From positions 1 through 64,000 of IMG/VR virus record IMGVR_UViG_3300032242_002636: a stretch of 64,000 nt of DNA; one strand, given 5' to 3'. Source of the stretch: a virus. Within the stretch, counting starts at the first letter, position 1. Each line of letters begins with the position of its first letter. Below, piece after piece: positions 5,203 through 45,351 of this stretch. A model generated the notes under the pieces. It was not told where the DNA came from. It did not search any database and saw only the letters and a program-made list of their open reading frames with translations. The position numbers and the translations under genes were made by a program.

Positions 5203-5475
5203 ATGCCAACTATTAGAATTCCAGTACCTCTTAGAAAGATCACAAACGATCTAGAAGTTATATCAATAGAAGGATCTACTATTGGTGAAGTCTTAATGAT
5301 GCTTTGTTCAAGATATCCAGAATTATATGATAGGTTATTTGATACAGATTCAAATGTTCGTAGATTCATTAATATATTTCTTAATGATGAGGACATTAAG
5401 TTTCTTAAAGATCTTGATACAGAAGTTAAAGAAACTGATGAAATTTCTATAGTTCCAGCAATAGCAGGAGGCTAA
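5203..5475 (+). CDS. CysO/MoaD/ThiS-type ubiquitin-like sulfur carrier
   Basis: The 90-residue protein has the beta-grasp pattern of small sulfur carriers. RIPVPLRKIT starts the first hairpin, GSTIGEVLMMLCSRYPEL forms the helix, RRFINIFLNDEDIKFL follows, and the end is EISIVPAIAGG. The terminal Gly-Gly is the residue pair that is adenylated and thiocarboxylated in MoaD, ThiS and CysO. The loop wording is closest to CysO-type carriers of cysteine synthesis. No E1-like activating enzyme, JAMM protease or CysM is seen in this window, so it may use host partners or modify proteins. It has its own consensus promoter, with ATG 6 nt after the -10 box. Its last codons encode the AGGAGG ribosome site of the next gene. 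Confidence 0.85.
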   Translation: MPTIRIPVPLRKITNDLEVISIEGSTIGEVLMMLCSRYPELYDRLFDTDSNVRRFINIFLNDEDIKFLKDLDTEVKETDEISIVPAIAGG

Positions 5476-5836: not shown

Positions 5837-6751
5837 GTGCAGTTTAACGACTATTATAAAGCCAGTAACATCAATGAATGTACTTCTGTTGGTATCTCAA
5901 TAGAAGGTAAGGTTATTTTAACCAAGAACAGAGATCGTACATATTATCCTAGAATAAAAATTGTTAGAGAGTTAATAAATGGACTTGAAGTAGCCTATAT
6001 GTATGATGAGGATACTGACTATTCAGAGGGAATGAATGAAGCTCATATCGGTATTTTAAATACTACTCTTCAAGGTAAAAAAGATGAAAATGAAGGTAGT
6101 AGTAAAAACAAGGGAAAACGTCTTAGAAGATTAAGTGGTGATGGTCATAAAATTAGAACTGCTTTAGGATATACTGATCCTGAAAAGGTTGTAAAATCAT
6201 TAGATCTATTTGATAGAGGTCTTGGTGGTCATACTACTGTTGCATATGAGAATGGATTTATTTCAATTGAAAAGTTAAAATTTGGAAAACCAGTTATCAA
6301 AAAATATGATAAAAATGGTGTTATCGTAAGAGCCAATCATGGTATTGCATATCCAGATCAGGGATATCAATTTGGCAAAGATAGAGAGTCAACACTTTCC
6401 AGAGTATTTTGGGCTACCAAAGAAGCAAGACTTGCTATCAGTCCAGAAGATTTATTAAACAAAATGAGAGAACACCATCAAGGAGTTCATGGTTATCTTG
6501 AACCATATAGAACCAATTATAAAGTATGGACATCATCACAGATACTTTTAAATGTAACTGATTTACAAATGATATTTGTAGTTGATGAAAATGCTGATTT
6601 TATTGGAATTGAAGATAGAATTCCAAAAGGACATACACCTAAAATTGATATACAAATTCAGAAGTTAGAAACAAAATTTGTCACCAGAGATGCAAACTAT
6701 AAAGGTGACGAAAGAGAAAATACAGAAGATACTACAAATTTTAGCTTGTAA
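5837..6751 (+). CDS. Ntn-hydrolase-like protein
   Basis: The start codon is GTG. After 14 residues (MQFNDYYKASNINE) comes CTSVGISIEGKVILTKNRDR. A Cys followed by a beta-strand and N-R-D is the signature of N-terminal-nucleophile amidohydrolases such as the C45/C59/TANGO2-like groups. YSEGMNEAHIGILNTTL (about 62-78) matches their G-x-N-E segment. In such enzymes the Cys must become N-terminal, and here it follows INE, an (I/L)xE site like those cut by T4 prohead protease. The substrate is unknown; amide or acyl bonds are expected. The C-terminal 100 residues lack recognisable motifs. A late-type element precedes the gene. Confidence 0.5.
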   Translation: MQFNDYYKASNINECTSVGISIEGKVILTKNRDRTYYPRIKIVRELINGLEVAYMYDEDTDYSEGMNEAHIGILNTTLQGKKDENEGSSKNKGKRLRRLSGDGHKIRTALGYTDPEKVVKSLDLFDRGLGGHTTVAYENGFISIEKLKFGKPVIKKYDKNGVIVRANHGIAYPDQGYQFGKDRESTLSRVFWATKEARLAISPEDLLNKMREHHQGVHGYLEPYRTNYKVWTSSQILLNVTDLQMIFVVDENADFIGIEDRIPKGHTPKIDIQIQKLETKFVTRDANYKGDERENTEDTTNFSL

Positions 6752-6776: not shown

Positions 6777-7376
6777 ATGGATATGAATCAACATTTACGT
6801 CAAGAAACGGTTTTGGTACTCAATAGATGCTGGCAAGCAATTCATGTAAAAAGTCCAGCAGAAGCGTTGTCGATGATGTATGATGATTCTGCAACAGGAT
6901 TGAATATCATAGGAAATGATTGTATGGTTCCTCTTCGTTGGACTGATTGGGTGAATCTTCCTTATGATGAAAATGACTTATATATTAAGACTGTTAATGG
7001 AAGTATTAAGATTCCAAAAGTAATAGTTCTTTCCAAGTTTGATAAGGTTCCTAGAAAGCGTCCTAAATTTACTACAAGAAATGTTTGGATTCGTGATAAC
7101 GGTACTTGTCAATATACAGGCAAAAAGCTTAATCATAGTGAGGGAAATATTGACCATGTACTTCCAAAGAGCCGTGGTGGTGTTACAAGCTGGACTAATT
7201 GCGTATTAGCGCATAAAGAAGTAAATGCTAAAAAAGCAGATAAGACTCCCGAAGAATCAGGTCTTAAACTTCTTCGTAAGCCTTCAGCACCCAAGGATAT
7301 GCCTGTTACTTTTTACATTAGGAATAAACATAATATCAGAGAATGGGAAATCTTCCTTAAAGATTTTACAAATTAA
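6777..7376 (+). CDS. HNH endonuclease-like protein
   Basis: The N-terminus VLVLNRCWQAIHVKSPAEAL and the HNH core IDHVLPKSRGG...WTN...NAKKADKTPEE (about 121-155) place it in the widespread McrA-like HNH family. The His/Asn catalytic residues are kept. The family's structural zinc site is eroded: CQYCG has become CQYTG, and the second Cys pair before NxxK is absent (LAHKEVN). It may fold without zinc. An alternative ATG lies two codons downstream. The role could be packaging-associated nicking or host DNA attack. Confidence 0.8.
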   Translation: MDMNQHLRQETVLVLNRCWQAIHVKSPAEALSMMYDDSATGLNIIGNDCMVPLRWTDWVNLPYDENDLYIKTVNGSIKIPKVIVLSKFDKVPRKRPKFTTRNVWIRDNGTCQYTGKKLNHSEGNIDHVLPKSRGGVTSWTNCVLAHKEVNAKKADKTPEESGLKLLRKPSAPKDMPVTFYIRNKHNIREWEIFLKDFTN

Positions 7377-34715: not shown

Positions 34716-37625
34716 ATGGCAAAGAAGAAAGAACAGGAAAGTAATTCTTTAGATGAGTTAACTATGGATGATATTTTGGTAGATGGAAAATTCTATCAAG
34801 GCAATGAGAATATCCTTCGTAAGGATGCTACATTTAAATGGACAGAAGAGATGTTGGCAGAGCTTAAACTCTGTGCCAAGAGTATTCTTCATTTTGCAGA
34901 AAACCATTTCTATATTATTACCGAAGACGGTAAAAGAAAGATTGAATTATACAAATATCAAAAAAGACTTTTAAAGGCTTTTAAATCTAATAGATTCAAT
35001 GTAATCCTATCTAGCCGTCAAAGTGGTAAGGCATTGGCTTTGAATACGCCCATACCAACACCTAATGGTTATGTTATGATGGGTGATCTTAAAGACGGAG
35101 ATCAAATATTTGGATCAGATGGTAATATATATAACATAAAAAAAGCACACGAAATTCTTAATCATAGAGAATGTTATAAACTAACATTTGATAACGGGGA
35201 ATCTATAGTTGCAGATGCTGAACACCTTTGGTTTACGCAGACAAAAAAAGATAGAAAAAGAAAATATAATAGAGAAGGTAGCGTAAAAACTACCAAAGAA
35301 ATTTTTAATAGTTTATTTTATACTTCCAATAACGAGCCTAATCATAGAATACCTATGTGTTTGAATGGTATAGAGTTTGAAGAAAAAAATCTACCAATAT
35401 CTCCATATATTCTTGGACTTTGGTTAGGGGACGGTGCAACTGATGGCTCAAGAATAACTGTTGGTAAAAGAGATATAAAATATATTATTGATATTTTAGA
35501 AAAAAATCAAGAATTCAAAATTATAAAAGTTCAAGAAGATAAAAATAGTGTTTTTGCTATAAATTTAACAAATGAAGAGAGAAAAAAAGATTCTTTACAC
35601 ACAAAATTAAGATTAAATGCTTTATTGGGAAATAAACACATCCCAGAATTATATCTATTATCTTCTAGAGAGCAAAGATTAGAATTATTAAAAGGATTGA
35701 TGGATTCTGATGGTTATATAACACCTAAAGGTCATGCATATTTTTATAATACCAATTTAAAATTGGTCAAACAAGTTCAATCTCTTATAACTAGTTTAGG
35801 ATATAAAGCCTTTTATAAAGAGAAAATAGCAAAAATAAATGGAGTGGAGTGTGGTCTTGTTGGAAGTGTTTACTTTAAACCAAGAGAATTTGTTGTTAAA
35901 TTACCATTTAAAGTAGATAGATTAAAAGATAATTTAAGCATTGTATCAGAATCAAATAGAAACCAATATCATTATATTAAAAATATAGAAAAAACAGAAA
36001 GTGTTCCTGTTAGGTGTATAACCGTTGATAGTCCAAATTCTCTATATCTTTGTGGTAGAAACTTCATACCAACTCATAATACAACTACAATTACCATTTA
36101 CGCTCTTTGGTTGGTGTGTTTCCAATCAGACAAGAGAATTACTATTGTAGCTAACAAGGAATCAACTGCAAAGGAAATCTTTGCTAGAATCAAGATGGCA
36201 TATGAACAGCTTCCGATTTACATGAAGCCAAATATTAAGTCTTGGAGAAAAGATGGCTTTGTTCTTGGTAATGATTCTGCAATTACTATTAGTACAACAT
36301 CATCATCTGGTCCTCGTGGTACTACCAGTAATCTTCTCATCATTGATGAGATGGCTCATTGTCCTGATGATCTCATGAGAGAACTTTGGAAATCTGCTAT
36401 TCCTATTATTTCTTCGATGAAGAAATCACAGGTTGTAGTCATTAGTACTCCTAATGGTAAGAATAATAAATTTTATGATCTTTATGAGGATAGTAAGAAG
36501 GAAGGAAGTGAGTGGAATCTAGAAGTTGTTAACTATTGGGATGTACCGGGTCGTGATGAGGAGTGGGTAAAAAAGACAATGGCAATGATGGGATCAAAAG
36601 ATGATTTTGATCAGGAATATTGTAATGTTTTCCATGATCCTAATAAAAGTGTGATTGATGAAGAGTATCTTACTAAATTAAAAGGTGAATGCCCAGAACC
36701 AGTTTTAGTATTGGAAGATGGTGCTTACAAGATATTTGAGCTTCCAAATCCAGATAGTTTTTATGTTATAGGTGTTGACGTTGGTGAAGGTATAGGAAGA
36801 ACAAATACTGTTGCTCAAATTTTAGATGTTTCTAATCTACAAAATATTAAACAAGTAGCTATATTTGCTTCTAATAATATAAATCCATTTCATTTTGGAA
36901 CACGACTAATGGGTGTTCTTCAGGATTGGGGAAGACCTCCTATCTTGGTTGAAAATAATAACAACGGACAGCAAATTTTGGACGTTCTTTGCCAGACTCA
37001 TAACTATGAGAATGTAGTATCATATCACTTTGAAGGTTTTAGTAAGCACTATAATAATACTCATAGATACGGTATACATAATCATACTAATACTAGATAT
37101 AAAGGTATAACAAACTTTAGATATTGGGTCAATAGTTTAAAAGCTGTTAAGCTCAATGACATGGATACTATCTTAGAGATAAACAGTTTTGTTCGTCTTC
37201 CAAATTATACATATACAAAGAAAAATGAAAAGGATCTTGATGATCGTGTATTTGGTCTTATATGGGCATTATTCATTCTTGATCCTTCCTTGGTAGCTAG
37301 ATACTTTACAATACAAGAATTAGACGATCAAGGTCGCCCAATGAAAATTTTTCCTCTTAGTGATAATAAGGATCTTATAAAGAATAGTCCATTACTAATA
37401 GGAGGTGGTGCTAGTATAGTAAAGAAACCTTCGGTTAATACTCCTTATTCTCATGTAGGTGGAATGGATATGGCTACTGGATTTGACCTTTTCTCTGATG
37501 ACAGAGCAAATTTACTAAGATGGATGTTAGAAACAGAGGAAGCTGATAGGATGTTACCTCCACAAATTGATGATAATTCGGATAAGTCTTCTATGGACAC
37601 TTATCATCCAACTATAATATTTTAA
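34716..37625 (+). CDS. large terminase subunit (gp17-like) precursor with intein
   Basis: The 969-residue precursor would give a 619-residue terminase after splicing. The Walker A sequence SSRQSGKT is split between Lys105 and the next extein Thr. Walker B is LLIIDE (540-545), with a coupling motif STTSSSGPRGTTS before it. The C-terminal nuclease begins YVIGVDVGEG (about 685), with further acidic residues in LVENNNNG and LDDRVFGL. It packages DNA into the prohead using ATP. The intein must splice before ATPase activity is possible. Confidence 0.93.
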   Translation: MAKKKEQESNSLDELTMDDILVDGKFYQGNENILRKDATFKWTEEMLAELKLCAKSILHFAENHFYIITEDGKRKIELYKYQKRLLKAFKSNRFNVILSSRQSGKALALNTPIPTPNGYVMMGDLKDGDQIFGSDGNIYNIKKAHEILNHRECYKLTFDNGESIVADAEHLWFTQTKKDRKRKYNREGSVKTTKEIFNSLFYTSNNEPNHRIPMCLNGIEFEEKNLPISPYILGLWLGDGATDGSRITVGKRDIKYIIDILEKNQEFKIIKVQEDKNSVFAINLTNEERKKDSLHTKLRLNALLGNKHIPELYLLSSREQRLELLKGLMDSDGYITPKGHAYFYNTNLKLVKQVQSLITSLGYKAFYKEKIAKINGVECGLVGSVYFKPREFVVKLPFKVDRLKDNLSIVSESNRNQYHYIKNIEKTESVPVRCITVDSPNSLYLCGRNFIPTHNTTTITIYALWLVCFQSDKRITIVANKESTAKEIFARIKMAYEQLPIYMKPNIKSWRKDGFVLGNDSAITISTTSSSGPRGTTSNLLIIDEMAHCPDDLMRELWKSAIPIISSMKKSQVVVISTPNGKNNKFYDLYEDSKKEGSEWNLEVVNYWDVPGRDEEWVKKTMAMMGSKDDFDQEYCNVFHDPNKSVIDEEYLTKLKGECPEPVLVLEDGAYKIFELPNPDSFYVIGVDVGEGIGRTNTVAQILDVSNLQNIKQVAIFASNNINPFHFGTRLMGVLQDWGRPPILVENNNNGQQILDVLCQTHNYENVVSYHFEGFSKHYNNTHRYGIHNHTNTRYKGITNFRYWVNSLKAVKLNDMDTILEINSFVRLPNYTYTKKNEKDLDDRVFGLIWALFILDPSLVARYFTIQELDDQGRPMKIFPLSDNKDLIKNSPLLIGGGASIVKKPSVNTPYSHVGGMDMATGFDLFSDDRANLLRWMLETEEADRMLPPQIDDNSDKSSMDTYHPTIIF
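35031..36080 (+). mobile_element. class 3 intein with LAGLIDADG-type endonuclease
   Basis: The 350-residue insert starts with Ala instead of Cys/Ser and ends THN before Thr+1. Trp67 lies in ADAEHLWFT, and Cys329 lies in VPVRCITV. With Thr+1 they form the W-C-T triad of class 3 inteins, in which the block-F Cys starts splicing. Two dodecapeptide motifs, LGLWLGDGATDG and LLKGLMDSDGYIT, mark a LAGLIDADG homing endonuclease. Insertion exactly within G-K/T of Walker A is a typical conserved site. Confidence 0.95.
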
Positions 37626-37627
37626 CT

Positions 37628-38227
37628 ATGAATCAAGCCGTTTTAAATAGATCTAGAAGCGATAAATTTGCATTTGTTTTAGAGTTGCCTAAAGCACTAA
37701 AACAACAACAAGATGTCGTTTTACAGAAGGAATATAATGCAGATAGTGTACAATTTACTACCTATGGATCACCAGTTCCTACAATTAATATACCTGAAAT
37801 AAAGGTTCCTTTTGGAGGACAGGTTTATAATACTTCTAGTATTTCTCGTCCAGCATATCCACCAATATCACTTAAATTTTTAGTAGATAATGGTTATCAA
37901 AACTATTGGATTTTATGGAAATGGTTGAATCTTTTTAATGATAATAAAGAAGGAACAACCAATTTAAATTCTCCTTTAAATTCAAGAAAAGATGATATTA
38001 TTTTAACTAATCCTATTACTGAATATGCTGCTAATTTTAGCTTATTTGGTTTAGATGAATTTAATAATCGAATTATATCATTCAATTATACACAGGCATT
38101 TATAACAGGATTAAGTCCAATTGAATTTTCATTCCAAAATCCTGCTGAAATCACTTGTACTGCTACATTCGTATTCAATCAATTGCAAATAAATCTTATT
38201 AAAGATATTAATGTATCTTCTTGTTAA
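37628..38227 (+). CDS. tail tube-like structural protein (199 aa)
   Basis: The pattern SDKFAFVLELPKALK...VPFGGQVYNTSSISRPAYPPISLKFLVDNGYQNYWILWKWLNLF resembles the fold of gp19-family tube proteins: paired strands with a central aromatic helix. It starts three nt after the terminase gene and is followed by a hub protein. It may be an adaptor ring of the tail. The assignment is by pattern only. Confidence 0.55.
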   Translation: MNQAVLNRSRSDKFAFVLELPKALKQQQDVVLQKEYNADSVQFTTYGSPVPTINIPEIKVPFGGQVYNTSSISRPAYPPISLKFLVDNGYQNYWILWKWLNLFNDNKEGTTNLNSPLNSRKDDIILTNPITEYAANFSLFGLDEFNNRIISFNYTQAFITGLSPIEFSFQNPAEITCTATFVFNQLQINLIKDINVSSC

Positions 38228-38229
38228 TT

Positions 38230-39951
38230 ATGGCTGAGTTTAATGTTCCATATAAACCAGTTTTTCAGAATCCTATTAGCCCTAATAAAGGACAATCGGA
38301 TACTCCTAGTAATGATTCTACTGCTGGAACAAATATTGATCAAAGATTTATACACCAAATCAGAGATCAGCTTTTCCATATAGAAATATGGATGTATAAT
38401 CAGTTAGATAAATTCGATCCATTTCCTATACCTTTTTTCTTTGTTGAGGGATTATGTATAGAAGAAACATTAATGAATTGGATAACAAAAGGTTGGTTAG
38501 TGTTATCTAATGACTATGAAATTATAGAAAGAGGTTCTTTATCATTTAAAAATGATAAAACTTTTATAGAACAAATAAAAGCACCTTTCATGTTTAGATC
38601 CGATGGTAGAAATAAAATATCAATAAAGATAAAACCAATCAATACATCTAATAATAGTATAAATGATGACTTACCTAAAGAACAGTGGGAAATGCAATAC
38701 GATTTTGTTATCTATGATATAGAAGATCTTCCTACTGAGACAGCTGCTAGAAAACTTAGAAAATTTTATTTTTGGGAAGAAAGATATCAAATATTCTTAG
38801 AAAGAAATATTGAATGGTCTACTGCAAAATATGCAAAAGGATCTTATGATATTGAAAGAACACTTCCTGTAGGAGGTTTACAAGAAACTAGTAATAAAGG
38901 AGAAAATGTACACGGAGCTATTGAATCTATTATAAGAGCAGCTGCTTCTCATACATCAGATCCATTTTTTCCTGATATAAAAATAGGAAGTAAAGAAGGA
39001 CCAAAGGGAATAGACAATCCTTATTTCCCTTTAGATAACTTTGATAAAGAAAATTGGGATGCAGGTTCTCCTGATAGTAGAGTATTTTATACTTCTCCTG
39101 CTAATAGTTGTGTATTAAAAGATTTGAGTTATGTAATGGGTTCATTAAAGGCTTCTGATGGAAGTCCTTTGTTCTTAACACTAGATAGATATTATAGAGA
39201 TGATGGTAAGAAATGGCAATTAATTTCTATGAGTAAATTTTTCATTGATGCAAAAAAGAATCAAGTAGAAAGATTACTAATAGAAGACAATCAAGATCCT
39301 GTAGGTGCTCCTCCATATCATGCCAGAGCACCACAGGAAGAAGAAAGCACTATTAGAAATTTCCAATCAGGAATAGCTTCTAGAATATTAACATATAATT
39401 TTGCACCTATGGCTTCTACGGATGATTTAATCTTTACCAATTGTCCTGTACATACTTTTGATTTTTCTAATTCAACTTTTAATATTGGGTTTGAAGGAAA
39501 TACAGTAAAAGATCTTTTAAAGAATATGAAAGAAATGGCAGATAAGGGACTTTATTCTTATAAAAATGAAAAACAATTGTTAATGAATGTTAATAAGACC
39601 AAGTATACAGGACTCATGACTTCTAATAACATGGTTACAAGGAGATTTTTTCCTAGTGATATTTCATATGTTTCTATGGCAAAAGAATTTTTATTTTTAA
39701 ATCAAGCAGTTAATTTTACTGCTTATGGATTAACATTAAGAACTCCGGGCAAGTTTATTTTTATAGATCGTGCAGTTTCTACATTAGAAAGAAATCCTTT
39801 TGATGATAGATTTTTAGGACAATGGATGATGATAAAAGTAGTTCATTTATTCACAAAGGAAAAATATATGAATGATGTATTAGCAACTAAGATAGATTCA
39901 TATAATAGATGGTTTGCTGAAGTAGATAAAGACGATCCTAAATATTATTAA
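38230..39951 (+). CDS. baseplate hub protein (gp27-like)
   Basis: The ATG at 38230 is chosen; an upstream TTG lies inside the previous gene's stop region. The 573-residue protein has the tail-hub layout: an early beta-rich domain with GWLVLSNDYEIIERGSLSF, a long middle region, and a final domain with NFTAYGLTLRTPGKFIFIDRAVS...FLGQWMMIKVVHLFTKEKYMNDVLATKID, which is typical of hub proteins that end in a gp27/VgrG-like beta barrel. It would hold the spike protein encoded two genes later. Confidence 0.65.
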   Translation: MAEFNVPYKPVFQNPISPNKGQSDTPSNDSTAGTNIDQRFIHQIRDQLFHIEIWMYNQLDKFDPFPIPFFFVEGLCIEETLMNWITKGWLVLSNDYEIIERGSLSFKNDKTFIEQIKAPFMFRSDGRNKISIKIKPINTSNNSINDDLPKEQWEMQYDFVIYDIEDLPTETAARKLRKFYFWEERYQIFLERNIEWSTAKYAKGSYDIERTLPVGGLQETSNKGENVHGAIESIIRAAASHTSDPFFPDIKIGSKEGPKGIDNPYFPLDNFDKENWDAGSPDSRVFYTSPANSCVLKDLSYVMGSLKASDGSPLFLTLDRYYRDDGKKWQLISMSKFFIDAKKNQVERLLIEDNQDPVGAPPYHARAPQEEESTIRNFQSGIASRILTYNFAPMASTDDLIFTNCPVHTFDFSNSTFNIGFEGNTVKDLLKNMKEMADKGLYSYKNEKQLLMNVNKTKYTGLMTSNNMVTRRFFPSDISYVSMAKEFLFLNQAVNFTAYGLTLRTPGKFIFIDRAVSTLERNPFDDRFLGQWMMIKVVHLFTKEKYMNDVLATKIDSYNRWFAEVDKDDPKYY

Positions 39952-40865: not shown

Positions 40866-42188
40866 ATGGCAACAAATCAAACAAATTCTGGTGAGTTAAA
40901 AAAACTTGAATTGGCTTGTGGTATAACATTGGATACTACACCTAATTTAAAAGATTTTTATTGCATGGGTGATAGAAATCATTATGCGGCTAATTTAGAT
41001 ATGTTGGTTAATGGTTTTAATTCTATAGGACATCAATGGATTGTAGAAGCAGGAGATCCTTATATAATAACACCGGGTGATACAGGAACATATGTTAACT
41101 TTGTTAAATGGCTTAATGCTAATAAAATTTTAGAAGCATGTCAAAAACTTACACCAGCAGGACAAAGAGGTGAATTGGTTACTGGTGGATTATTAGGTAT
41201 AAATCTGATTTCTACTTCTATGATGACAAGGAATCCTATAACAGGACCAGGTCAAAATACTCACAATTTAACCGTAAATGCTTTAAACAGTATTGATCCA
41301 AATATGGTTACAAAAATAGAAAATGTTTGTAATATAATCCGTACAAGATCATATTTAAGTTTACCTGCTGCTGGATTTGGAAGTTTACAAAGCTTACTTT
41401 ATAAAGCACAAGGAGCAGTTCAAGGGCTTGCTCAATATCTATATAATATATATCATGGAGTTCTTGCAATGATGCAAAAATTTGCAAGAATGATTAATGG
41501 TATTATTCAATCATTAAATCAAATTATTTATGATTATATAAATCAACATATATTACCTTTAGATTTGATATGTGCTATATTAGGTGCTTTTCAATCATTA
41601 GTAGATGATGTTGCATTTTTTGCTCAATTATTTGATGGTGGAGATGCGGTATTTAATGCTATTAATGCTGTTCAAACTGGAATTAACTATGCTGTACAAG
41701 GGTTGAATTATATTGCTAATCCAATTTCTCTTGCTGGTTTAATTCCGGGTATAAATGATGTTTTCACAGCTTTAAATGAATTATCAAGTGATCCTGAAGC
41801 ATTCATGGGTCATTTGATTACTCATTTTAATCTTACTGCTGGTCAAAATAATAAAGCAATACAAATAGCAAATGCTATTTTATTACGTTATGGGTTAGAA
41901 GGACAGCTTGGTCCTTTAGGTCCGTTATTATTAAGTCAAGGTGTTGCAGGAAATAGTAGTGATTGGTATAAAACAGGAAATACTGGAACAGGAAATTTTG
42001 GAAATCTTGCTACTGGAAATGTTACTCCAAATCAAGGTTATTTTGATCCAGATAATCCATTAGAATTCTTAGATGTTAATTCTAATCAATATTTTAATGC
42101 TGCTAAAACTAATTTGGCAGATTTTACAGATAATGCTAAAGCAATACCCGGAGCATTTTCTACATTCATAGCAAATCCTTTAAAGTAA
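40866..42188 (+). CDS. hydrophobic virion protein (440 aa)
   Basis: The middle of the protein (about 180-300) is rich in Ala, Ile, Leu, Gln and Asn. Long amphipathic or hydrophobic stretches include LICAILGAFQSLVDDVAFFAQLF and GINYAVQGLNYIANPISLAGLI. Gly/Asn-rich segments follow. It lies between the hub-side genes and the spike. A membrane-active or pilot protein of the tail tip is an inference. No family is recognised. Confidence 0.55.
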   Translation: MATNQTNSGELKKLELACGITLDTTPNLKDFYCMGDRNHYAANLDMLVNGFNSIGHQWIVEAGDPYIITPGDTGTYVNFVKWLNANKILEACQKLTPAGQRGELVTGGLLGINLISTSMMTRNPITGPGQNTHNLTVNALNSIDPNMVTKIENVCNIIRTRSYLSLPAAGFGSLQSLLYKAQGAVQGLAQYLYNIYHGVLAMMQKFARMINGIIQSLNQIIYDYINQHILPLDLICAILGAFQSLVDDVAFFAQLFDGGDAVFNAINAVQTGINYAVQGLNYIANPISLAGLIPGINDVFTALNELSSDPEAFMGHLITHFNLTAGQNNKAIQIANAILLRYGLEGQLGPLGPLLLSQGVAGNSSDWYKTGNTGTGNFGNLATGNVTPNQGYFDPDNPLEFLDVNSNQYFNAAKTNLADFTDNAKAIPGAFSTFIANPLK

Positions 42189-42192
42189 TATT

Positions 42193-43311
42193 ATGGAACC
42201 TGTTTATGGAATACATTTAGGATTAGTAGTTAGTAGTTCAACAGATCCAGAAAATAGAAATAGAGTTCAAGTATGGATTCCTTATCTTACCAATACACTT
42301 TATAAATCATTAAATTCAAAATTAACAGATTTAACATTTAAAGGACCAGAAGATTTAAATTTAAAAGATCCTTTAATTTTACAAACCTTACAAAAAATAC
42401 TACCTTGGGCAGAATATGCTGCTCCTTTACTAGGTGGTTCTAGTGGTGTATTCAATACTTCTACAGGAAAAACAGCAACAAATGCAGGTTCTACTATACA
42501 ACAATATAAGAATCCTGATATAACTTTAACAAATATAACATTTAATTTTAATCATCAAGGAGATAAACTAGCAGACACTAAAATACAAAACGGAGCAGGA
42601 TTTGAAGCAGGTACTGCTTCTCCATTTACTGGTACAGCAGGAGGAATAGGAAATAATTGGGCAGGTTCCTTGCCTAAATTACAAGCAATCTTACCACAAA
42701 ATCAAACATATGACCCTTCTAGCCAAAAAAGAGATAGACAAAACACATCTTCTGGTTTTATATCAGATCATTATGCTGGAAATTCATCTGCATATGCTGT
42801 AGATTTAGGATTGAATTCACAATTCAAAAATAGTACACAAGCTGCAACACAAACTGCAATAGATACTGTAAATAACATTAGAACAGCAAATGGACAAACT
42901 CCTATAACATCTTGGAGTCAAGTTCCTAATGGAGTTTATAATGGAACTACTCCAGATGGATTTAGAGTGCAAGTATTATGGCAAACAAATGTAGGAGGAA
43001 ATCATTTTGATCATGTTCATGTAGGTGTTAAAAATATAGGAAGTGGAAATACAAATTCATATGAAACTACTTCCGTAAAAACTCCCACAGAAAAAAGCTC
43101 TGGACCTAATCCAGTTCCTATAATAGATAGATCTGCTGTTGTAGGATCGGTTCCTACTAATATAGGAACACCAGGATCAGCAGTTGGTTCTTTTTCTACA
43201 CCTAATGCAGGATCAAAAGTTTGGGTATTCTTCTTAGGAGGAGATATTCAGCGTCCAGTATATTTTGCTCAATCACCAAATCCTAGTGATATAGCTGCTT
43301 TGACTTCTTAA
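42193..43311 (+). CDS. baseplate spike protein (gp5 OB-fold) with inserted M15-type peptidase
   Basis: The ends form a gp5-type OB fold. YGIHLGLVVSS...RNRVQVWIPYL (5-32) and PWAEYAAPLLGG (71-82) are at the N-terminus, and AGSKVWVFFLGGDIQRPVYFAQ at 339-360. Between them sits a zinc peptidase-like domain with SDHYAGNSSAYAVDL (191-205) and HFDHVHVGV (271-279), the H...D...HxH pattern of M15-type D-Ala-D-Ala or endopeptidases. T4 gp5 carries a lysozyme instead. The domain would open peptidoglycan at the tail tip. Confidence 0.8.
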   Translation: MEPVYGIHLGLVVSSSTDPENRNRVQVWIPYLTNTLYKSLNSKLTDLTFKGPEDLNLKDPLILQTLQKILPWAEYAAPLLGGSSGVFNTSTGKTATNAGSTIQQYKNPDITLTNITFNFNHQGDKLADTKIQNGAGFEAGTASPFTGTAGGIGNNWAGSLPKLQAILPQNQTYDPSSQKRDRQNTSSGFISDHYAGNSSAYAVDLGLNSQFKNSTQAATQTAIDTVNNIRTANGQTPITSWSQVPNGVYNGTTPDGFRVQVLWQTNVGGNHFDHVHVGVKNIGSGNTNSYETTSVKTPTEKSSGPNPVPIIDRSAVVGSVPTNIGTPGSAVGSFSTPNAGSKVWVFFLGGDIQRPVYFAQSPNPSDIAALTS

Positions 43312-43332: not shown

Positions 43333-45351
43333 ATGCCATTTTCAAACGAAACTAGTACTAATGCTCAAAAATCTACAACTGCTGTACAAGGACCAGAAAG
43401 CGGTGTTCAATTTGTAGAAAACAAATCAGTAGATCCAAACGGATCACAACTTCTTACTGATAGATGTTTTGCAGCCATACAAAACTCTTGGAAATCATTA
43501 GTTAAAATTTTTCAAGGTAATGTTTTTATAAAAGGACATGGTAATGTTAGTATAAATGCTGGACATGATGTTCATGTAACTGCTCAAAATAAACAAGAAA
43601 CTACATATGGTTCCAATAATACATATAATAGAGGTGGTGGAAATACTGTAAAGGGTGAATTAAGCAAAGAACATAGTAAACAAGTAGACGAATATACACA
43701 ACACTTAGAATCCATTGATAAAGCAAAAATGGATGCAATGAAAGCAACAAAAGCAGAAAAAGTTGTATGCGCTAATTGTAATCAAGTTCACTTGGTGGAT
43801 GATAAAAGTGATAATTGGAGTATTATTTTAGATGAAGTAAGAAAAAAGATAGATGGGATGCCGTATCTACAAGGTCCTTTTTCTGTTTTAAGATGGTTGG
43901 TTCAAAAGGTTTATGTAGCATTACATGGCACTAAAAGTAATATAGATCTTAATATGGGAAAAGGGTGCGGACCCGGATGTGATGCTGGACTTAGAGACGG
44001 ATTATCTTTAAAATTTCAAGCTGGTGAGGAGGCTGCTAAGAAAGAAATGGAAAGATTGTCCGAAACAATGAATAAACTTACAGCAAATATGCCTAGTAAT
44101 TCTTCTGGTGCAGAAGTACATGCACTAGGATATGCTTTTGTATTTGGACAACCATCTGTTCCTAAAAATGTTCCATATCAGAATCATGGTGATTATCATC
44201 AATTAGCAATGAATCTTAGAGTTTCTGATGCTCTTAGAAATAAATTAAGAGTAACAACAGAAGGAAATTGCAAAAGAATAGTTTATCACCCACCCGAAAG
44301 TTCACCTTTTGGTAATTTATTAATTAATATACAAAATAATTTTAAAATTACATCAGGTAATAATGGTATGGATTTTATTTCTACTGGAGAAATTGCAATA
44401 AAAGGAGGTTCTGTTCATATTAATGGAAGTCAGGGAGAAGTTTCTTTAACCTCTGGAAATCTTACTACTATTGGTGGTGCAAACGTTTTAATATCTGCTG
44501 ATAATAAATCAGGAGAATCGGGTGTCCATATAGATTCTAAACGCACTTATATAGGAGGTTCATTTAACGTAAACGGAGATTCTGCAATGTTAGGTTCATT
44601 AAGAGTCGATGGTGCTTTATCTGTAGATTATATTAATTGTCCTACTATGGCTGCGCCATCAACTATAAATGGTAATGATAATTTTGTAACTCATCATTCA
44701 AATTGGCAATATGTAGCAGGTGGTCTAAATGGTGCTAATCTTGCTTTAAAATTGGGAACAAAATTTGCATTACAACCTTGGATGTTAATGTTACCAACTG
44801 GTATATTAGAATTGTTTTTAGAACATTACAACATTGCAATGATGTCTCTTCCTATAGAAATTCTTCCTACTGGTGTATTTTGGGGCTATAGTTGGGGAGT
44901 AGGAGTAGGAACCTGTGCTGGTTGGATTTGGAATTATCCACACAATCATACAAGAACACCTGAAGAACATGGACATGAAACACCAGTTCCTAATGGAGGA
45001 TATTGGAGAAAATCATCTGGAGCAGGACAAGCAAATACTGCTGGTAATCCTGCACCTACTCCTATACCAACAAGCGGTACATATCCAAAACCCGGACCTA
45101 GAACGTGGGGAGGTGGTTGTGGTGGTGGTGGTTTATATTCTAAGGTTCGTAATCAAAAATACGGAATCAATAGTGATGATGCATTTAACGGAGGAAATTA
45201 TGTAACAACTACTGTAGTTAGAAATGCGGATGGTTCTATATACCCAACACCTGATTTAACTTATAGATATGTTAAAGACAATGGTTCTAATGCCACTGTA
45301 GATACTAATACAGGTACTGTATCATATCCTCTCACAGGTATTAACTGTTAA
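43333..45351 (+). CDS. spike needle/beta-helix-like tail-tip protein (672 aa)
   Basis: An early segment GNVFIKGHGNVSINAGHDVHVTAQNKQETTYG reads like the repeating strands of a gp5 C-terminal beta-prism needle. A second repeat region (about 340-425) with IAIKGGSVHINGSQGEVSLTSGNL is similar. Between them is a helical domain with CANC and CGPGC cysteine pairs. The C-terminal 200 residues are Gly/Pro/Tyr-rich with a hydrophobic core. It may extend the spike and bind the host or metal. It overlaps the convergent gene by 4 nt. Confidence 0.6.
   Translation: MPFSNETSTNAQKSTTAVQGPESGVQFVENKSVDPNGSQLLTDRCFAAIQNSWKSLVKIFQGNVFIKGHGNVSINAGHDVHVTAQNKQETTYGSNNTYNRGGGNTVKGELSKEHSKQVDEYTQHLESIDKAKMDAMKATKAEKVVCANCNQVHLVDDKSDNWSIILDEVRKKIDGMPYLQGPFSVLRWLVQKVYVALHGTKSNIDLNMGKGCGPGCDAGLRDGLSLKFQAGEEAAKKEMERLSETMNKLTANMPSNSSGAEVHALGYAFVFGQPSVPKNVPYQNHGDYHQLAMNLRVSDALRNKLRVTTEGNCKRIVYHPPESSPFGNLLINIQNNFKITSGNNGMDFISTGEIAIKGGSVHINGSQGEVSLTSGNLTTIGGANVLISADNKSGESGVHIDSKRTYIGGSFNVNGDSAMLGSLRVDGALSVDYINCPTMAAPSTINGNDNFVTHHSNWQYVAGGLNGANLALKLGTKFALQPWMLMLPTGILELFLEHYNIAMMSLPIEILPTGVFWGYSWGVGVGTCAGWIWNYPHNHTRTPEEHGHETPVPNGGYWRKSSGAGQANTAGNPAPTPIPTSGTYPKPGPRTWGGGCGGGGLYSKVRNQKYGINSDDAFNGGNYVTTTVVRNADGSIYPTPDLTYRYVKDNGSNATVDTNTGTVSYPLTGINC

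Follow-up and report, generated by a model that had tools for sequence, protein, structure and literature searches.

A predicted zinc peptidase within the split OB fold of a gp5-like phage tail spike, in a loop that carries other domains in related phages

The DNA analysed here (the window, 64,000 nucleotides) is part of a 107,454-base IMG/VR virus record that carries T4-like sheath, tube, terminase and family-B polymerase genes. The gene of interest encodes a predicted central spike protein and belongs to a conserved gene order of tube-like protein, 576-aa ORF, 440-aa ORF, OB gene and needle gene, whose features are collected in Table 1. The original prediction, made by reading the sequence, was that a zinc peptidase interrupts the gp5-type OB fold of this protein; its coordinates, frame and motifs were found as described (PWAEYAAP at residue 71, SDHYAG at 191 with H193, AVDL at 202 with D204, GNHFDHVH at 269 and VWVFFLGGD at 343). 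A PHROGs search gave no match for the OB protein.

Table 1. Features of the spike locus, in window coordinates.
Feature	Coordinates	Strand	Basis
Tail-tube-like protein	37628..38227	+	PHROG 45, E 3e-18
576-aa conserved neighbour, possible gp27-like hub	38221..39951	+	Synteny; no family match
440-aa conserved upstream neighbour, same baseplate block	40866..42188	+	Synteny, ~25 loci
Split-OB gp5-like central spike gene with inserted peptidase, 372 aa	42193..43311	+	
OB fold, N-terminal part, residues 1-83 (strands 8-12, 25-28, 72-75)	42193..42441	+	Phage_base_V, AF2, conservation in relatives
Inserted segment, residues 84-327, between OB strands 3 and 4	42442..43173	+	Absent from the 3 named-phage spikes inspected
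MT3/VldE-type LAS zinc peptidase domain (predicted), residues ~154-282	42652..43038	+	VldE profile match; hhalign
S177-Q-K-R180, predicted transition-state Ser/Arg (VldE S291/R294)	42721..42732	+	Aligned to VldE SGYR
H193, predicted Zn ligand (VldE H301)	42769..42771	+	Invariant in 8/8 rows of insert alignment
D204, predicted Zn ligand (VldE D308)	42802..42804	+	Invariant in eight-row insert alignment
H271-F-D273-H274-V-H276, predicted catalytic HxH block (VldE H370, D372, H373, H375)	43003..43020	+	Insert alignment
OB fold, C-terminal part, residues 328-361 (strands 342-347, 355-361)	43174..43275	+	Phage_base_V, AF2
Needle (beta-helix-like) part of spike, separate gene	43333..45351	+	Beta-helix read from sequence; no family match

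Elsewhere in the window, the terminase large subunit (34716-37625) is unusually long at 969 aa and gave partial, separate matches that include helicase-loader and primase families. The product of 6777-7376 has an HNH domain resembling that of Cas9d/IscB (a match of about 57 aa in NCBIfam, E 4e-14, far under the family cut-off) and is probably a phage HNH endonuclease. An adenylosuccinate-synthetase-like gene lies at 490-1503 (Pfam E 1e-80; 337 aa, short for PurA); it scores higher to purA than to PurZ in NCBIfam, yet under the purA cut-offs. A reading of it as PurZ (2-aminoadenine) was set aside on this preference and on its WGDEGKG motif, in which the PurA aspartate is retained.

Some 245 residues are inserted into the OB fold between its third and fourth strands, at about positions 40/41 of the Phage_base_V profile. 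In Pfam the intact window protein matched Phage_base_V above the cut-off, with residues 328-357 covering profile positions 41-70 only (E 1.7e-7); the N-terminal part alone gave a weak match to positions 3-26 (E 0.18), and the score improved when the halves were joined (positions 31-70, E 2.6e-10). In the relative L008 the halves matched singly, the N-terminal one at positions 1-35 (E 1.6e-5) and the C-terminal one at 35-75 (E 5e-8). A scan of viral contigs found 14 loci with the protein as query and 79 with an alignment as query. The C-terminal OB motif is present in about 40 distinct ORFs, and both OB halves in 36 rows including the window (that is, about 35 relatives). Conservation across these rows covers the N-terminal end up to LPWAE..APxxGG and the C-terminal end from GS..G.FS.P..GSKVWVFFxGGDxQxPVYFA, and the middle segment between them ranges from 80 to 506 residues.

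A profile of the joined halves had eight matches at E<0.1 in the PDB, seven of which are contractile spikes (Gp5, All3320, AlgoCIS, PVC, Afp8, the A-1(L) central spike and VgrG), and in the alignments shown the OB halves are colinear with these spikes. The joined consensus also matched 54 named phages, 43 of them in one piece with at least 80% of the consensus covered; in the three spikes inspected (Streptomyces phage BRock gp130, Rhizobium phage RHph_TM40 and Bacillus phage SP-15) the OB is uninterrupted and the corresponding loop is a few residues long (e.g. LPWVYPNQPTFQGGSGKGSQFSVPVIG). Searches of named phages by tblastn with the whole window protein, L008 and L011 gave no matches. By profile comparison the OB assignment of the window protein is above chance, and the splitting of the fold and the position of the slot are established at the level of sequence.

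Structure prediction, which had been proposed as a check on closure of the OB fold, was run separately for the full-length rows (31 sequences) and for the insert alone (8 sequences). In the full-length AF2 model all five strands of Table 1 are present with pLDDT mostly 78-90 (78-89 in most of the three N-half strands and about 67-90 in the C half), so that both OB halves are confidently modelled, and the insert is below pLDDT 50. OB strands had been predicted on both sides of the insert and the profiles and model bear this out for both parts, with the correction that two strands and not one follow the insert. Foldseek comparison of the full model with PDB spikes returned short OB fragments only (the best, PVC 9qgm, is weak at E 0.35), and in BFVD an uncultured Caudovirales protein aligned over 386 columns (E 1e-4). 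Foldseek by itself is no proof of OB closure, and the case for it rests on the profiles. The insert-only model (pTM 0.73) gave chance matches only in Foldseek, none of them LAS or M15.

A homologue of the needle ORF lies downstream of the OB gene in almost all loci that are long enough, and in L030, L031, L032 and L063 the two genes are fused into one of about 1,220 aa. The linkage of the OB gene to the needle gene is thus seen in gene order and in fusions. The needle protein ends in YPHNHTRTPEEHGHE and beyond, with HNH and HGH clusters. Other phage spikes have metal-binding tips, and these clusters could be such a tip.

The insert is longer than its catalytic domain, and both of its ends are low-complexity linkers. 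It had been called M15-like, and this is apt for a zinc-peptidase-like insert with that chemistry; the profiles place the family as MT3/VldE, no Pfam M15 model was reached by the window protein, and membership of an M15 Pfam family is unsupported by the matches. The Pfam search of the window protein also gave no Phage_lysozyme match. A profile of the insert (8 sequences) matched PDB entries 9flh/9fln (E 9e-6), whose record is labelled as a LysM domain-containing protein. We identify these as the MT3 domain of pneumococcal VldE (Spr1875) by fit of description and not by code, because a LysM protein, six structures and an H373A variant fit the published account (PMC11667670). That domain has the LAS fold and cuts peptidoglycan, the tape-measure MT3 domain of mycobacteriophage TM4 also cuts peptidoglycan, and VldE is inactive as H301A, D308A, H370A, D372A, H373A or H375A (PMC11667670). 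All eight of the VldE residues compared are present in the window insert. In the eight-row insert alignment H271, F272, D273, H274 and H276 are invariant, as are all three predicted Zn ligands (H193, D204 and H276; 8/8 rows). The active site originally listed (H193, D204, H274 and H276) is therefore all present, and it had missed H271, D273 and R180, which have VldE equivalents.

Further relatives of the insert lie outside spike proteins: it aligns to L095 (37% over 107 aa), to hub-like L013, and to tape-measure-like L014 and L096-L098. A profile of the window protein, L095 and L013 compared by hhalign with the tape-measure-borne relatives gave probability 99.3 and a score of 116, where none of 100 shuffles of the columns exceeded 22.5; without the GNHFDHxH block the score was 58 against at most 13.9. 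The spacing between the first two ligands is H-x10-D in the window insert, L095 and L013, and H-x6-D in VldE. In L095 (3131-4279) the MT3 peptidase follows an SLT-like sequence (by motif reading) in one phage protein that has no OB fold. Kinship with T5-type M15C endolysins was set aside, since the hhalign score was within the shuffles and only the SxH..G..AxD motif aligned; a search of bacterial genomes with the insert gave no confirmed relatives. By profile homology and catalytic residues the insert is an MT3/VldE-type zinc peptidase of predicted LAS fold, clan MD.

The same loop holds other domains in related loci. In L024 a GH24 lysozyme lies between the OB halves (Pfam E 1e-13), and in L007 a Phage_lysozyme2 domain lies in the loop (E 3e-9), both above cut-off; under the curated cut-offs are an SLT-like insert in L042 (6e-4), a Tlde1-like one in copy 1 of L021 (2e-4) and a GH75-like one in L027 (1e-3). 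Inserts beyond the Pfam matches were classed by motif reading or by BLAST among themselves only: by motif, L026 is SleB-like, L001 cysteine-peptidase-like, L003 and L009 3D-like, and L005, L008 and L037 are other H..D..H peptidase-like inserts. By our own reading the loops of L030, L031, L032 and L063 hold two domains, of which the second is common to L030 and L032 and the first is not. No recognisable enzyme was found in the loops of L035, L039, L040, L043 and L011.

Pairs of closely related loci differ in this loop. The OB halves of L026 and L027 are identical at 117 of 118 residues (78/79 plus 39/39), and their DNA matches at 84% identity for 5.4 kb as far as position 5376 and again at 93% for 5.2 kb from position 5934; between these matching flanks the DNA is unrelated, as are the inserts. 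The pairs L001/L021, L030/L032, L031/L063 and L045/L052 likewise have different inserts between flanks that are about 70-86% identical, with breakpoints in the loop linkers. Exchange of cargo in the OB loop is, on these DNA alignments, evident. Tandem pairs of OB genes with different inserts occur in L001 (6001-8440) and L021 (5001-7351), and it is possible that such pairs give mixed trimers. We are moderately confident that the strand-3/4 loop is a dedicated socket whose unrelated wall hydrolases are exchanged through recombination in the conserved linkers, and that phages with tandem genes might build mixed spikes of two chemistries.

The reading that we hold to be very probable is that the ORF encodes a gp5*-like spike OB protein of a divergent T4-like phage, that the strand-3/4 loop is an exchange slot for peptidoglycan-cutting domains, and that the cargo here is an MT3/VldE-type zinc endopeptidase. 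The insert might instead be a maturation protease that processes the spike, or an inactive structural domain that binds wall or receptor. T4 gp5 does need cleavage between its enzyme and its needle (PMC3004832), but the window encodes the needle as a gene of its own. The unusual H-x10-D spacing and the enzyme-free loops of L035, L039 and L040 would fit an insert that does not cut the wall; against this, the alternative cargo of the slot is wall-directed (lysozyme and, more weakly, SLT, GH75 and Tlde1), both VldE, the nearest solved relative, and the TM4 MT3 domain cut peptidoglycan (PMC11667670), and L095 has its MT3 domain beside SLT-like sequence. We regard such a role as unlikely.

It is very improbable that the two halves do not form one OB barrel, either because an OB remnant is fused to a peptidase or because the C part is swapped between protomers. 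The AF2 model is of a monomer and the full-length Foldseek matches are weak and to OB fragments only, which leaves room for such an arrangement; however, both halves are conserved together in about 35 proteins around inserts of 80-506 aa, the profile score rises when they are joined, they are colinear with intact OB domains and the BFVD alignment spans 386 columns. Diversity of the inserts through divergence of one ancestral domain, and not through exchange, is hardly credible: many insert ends (the linkers) are homologous among relatives, as simple divergence would have it, but Pfam assigns the L024 and L007 inserts to separate families with scores that pass the cut-off, and other inserts less strongly, and over about 10 kb the DNA of L026 and L027 is 84-93% identical with the insert as the sole difference.

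Set beside T4 gp5, the locus has the same ensemble of OB domain, wall-cutting enzyme and needle in a baseplate block with tube proteins. In T4 a GH24 lysozyme lies between OB and beta-helix in one chain and is released by proteolysis, whereas the window protein has the Phage_base_V/gp5 OB domain with a zinc peptidase inside it, lacks GH24 between OB and beta-helix and leaves the needle to a separate gene. The contrast with T4 drawn originally was right in substance, and was wrong in placing the T4 lysozyme at the C terminus: the OB fold precedes it and the beta-helix follows it (PMC3004832). T4 arrives at a similar two-piece spike by cleavage of gp5 between lysozyme and needle (PMC3004832). 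VldE/Spr1875 (PDB 9flh-9fln) and TM4 tape-measure motif 3 share with the insert an MT3-type LAS zinc peptidase with H..D..H-x-D-H-x-H; the insert differs from them in its H-x10-D in place of H-x6-D and in its carrier, which is a spike OB and not LysM or a tape measure. The baseplate of Anabaena myophage A-1(L) also bears several wall-cutting domains, including a peptidase, at the tail tip, but there it is the hub, gp15, that carries the enzymes, and the OB domain of the spike is a plain one (PMC10966104). VgrG, PVC, AFP and AlgoCIS spikes have the same OB domain, with a short OB loop in those aligned. Evolved VgrGs bear their effectors in other parts of the chain, most often at the C-terminal end. 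Spikes with an OB domain, MT3 peptidases and tail lysins are each already known separately; a search of titles and abstracts, of incomplete coverage and missing subscription papers, gave nothing that describes an enzyme within the OB fold of a spike or an exchange of cargo at this loop.

We propose that the OB protein, as a presumed trimer, would cap the tube and hub and join the hub to the needle (the product of the ORF at 43333), as in T4. On contraction of the tail the OB spike would enter the periplasm, where up to three peptidase domains, held on linkers from the side loops, would cut peptide stems around the passing tube; the trimer, its place in the virion, the enzymatic activity, the bond cut and the timing are inferred. 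With the cargo in the loop, the connection of OB to needle would stay free, so that enzymes could be exchanged by linker recombination without rebuilding of the spike.

This would be a way of arming a contractile tail unlike that of T4, in which the enzyme is plugged into the loop of an OB adapter, and its chemistry could therefore be changed without touching needle or hub. OB proteins that have gone unassigned in annotation can now also be named, and L026/L027 and L001/L021 are natural matched pairs in which to ask whether cargo tracks the wall chemistry of the host.
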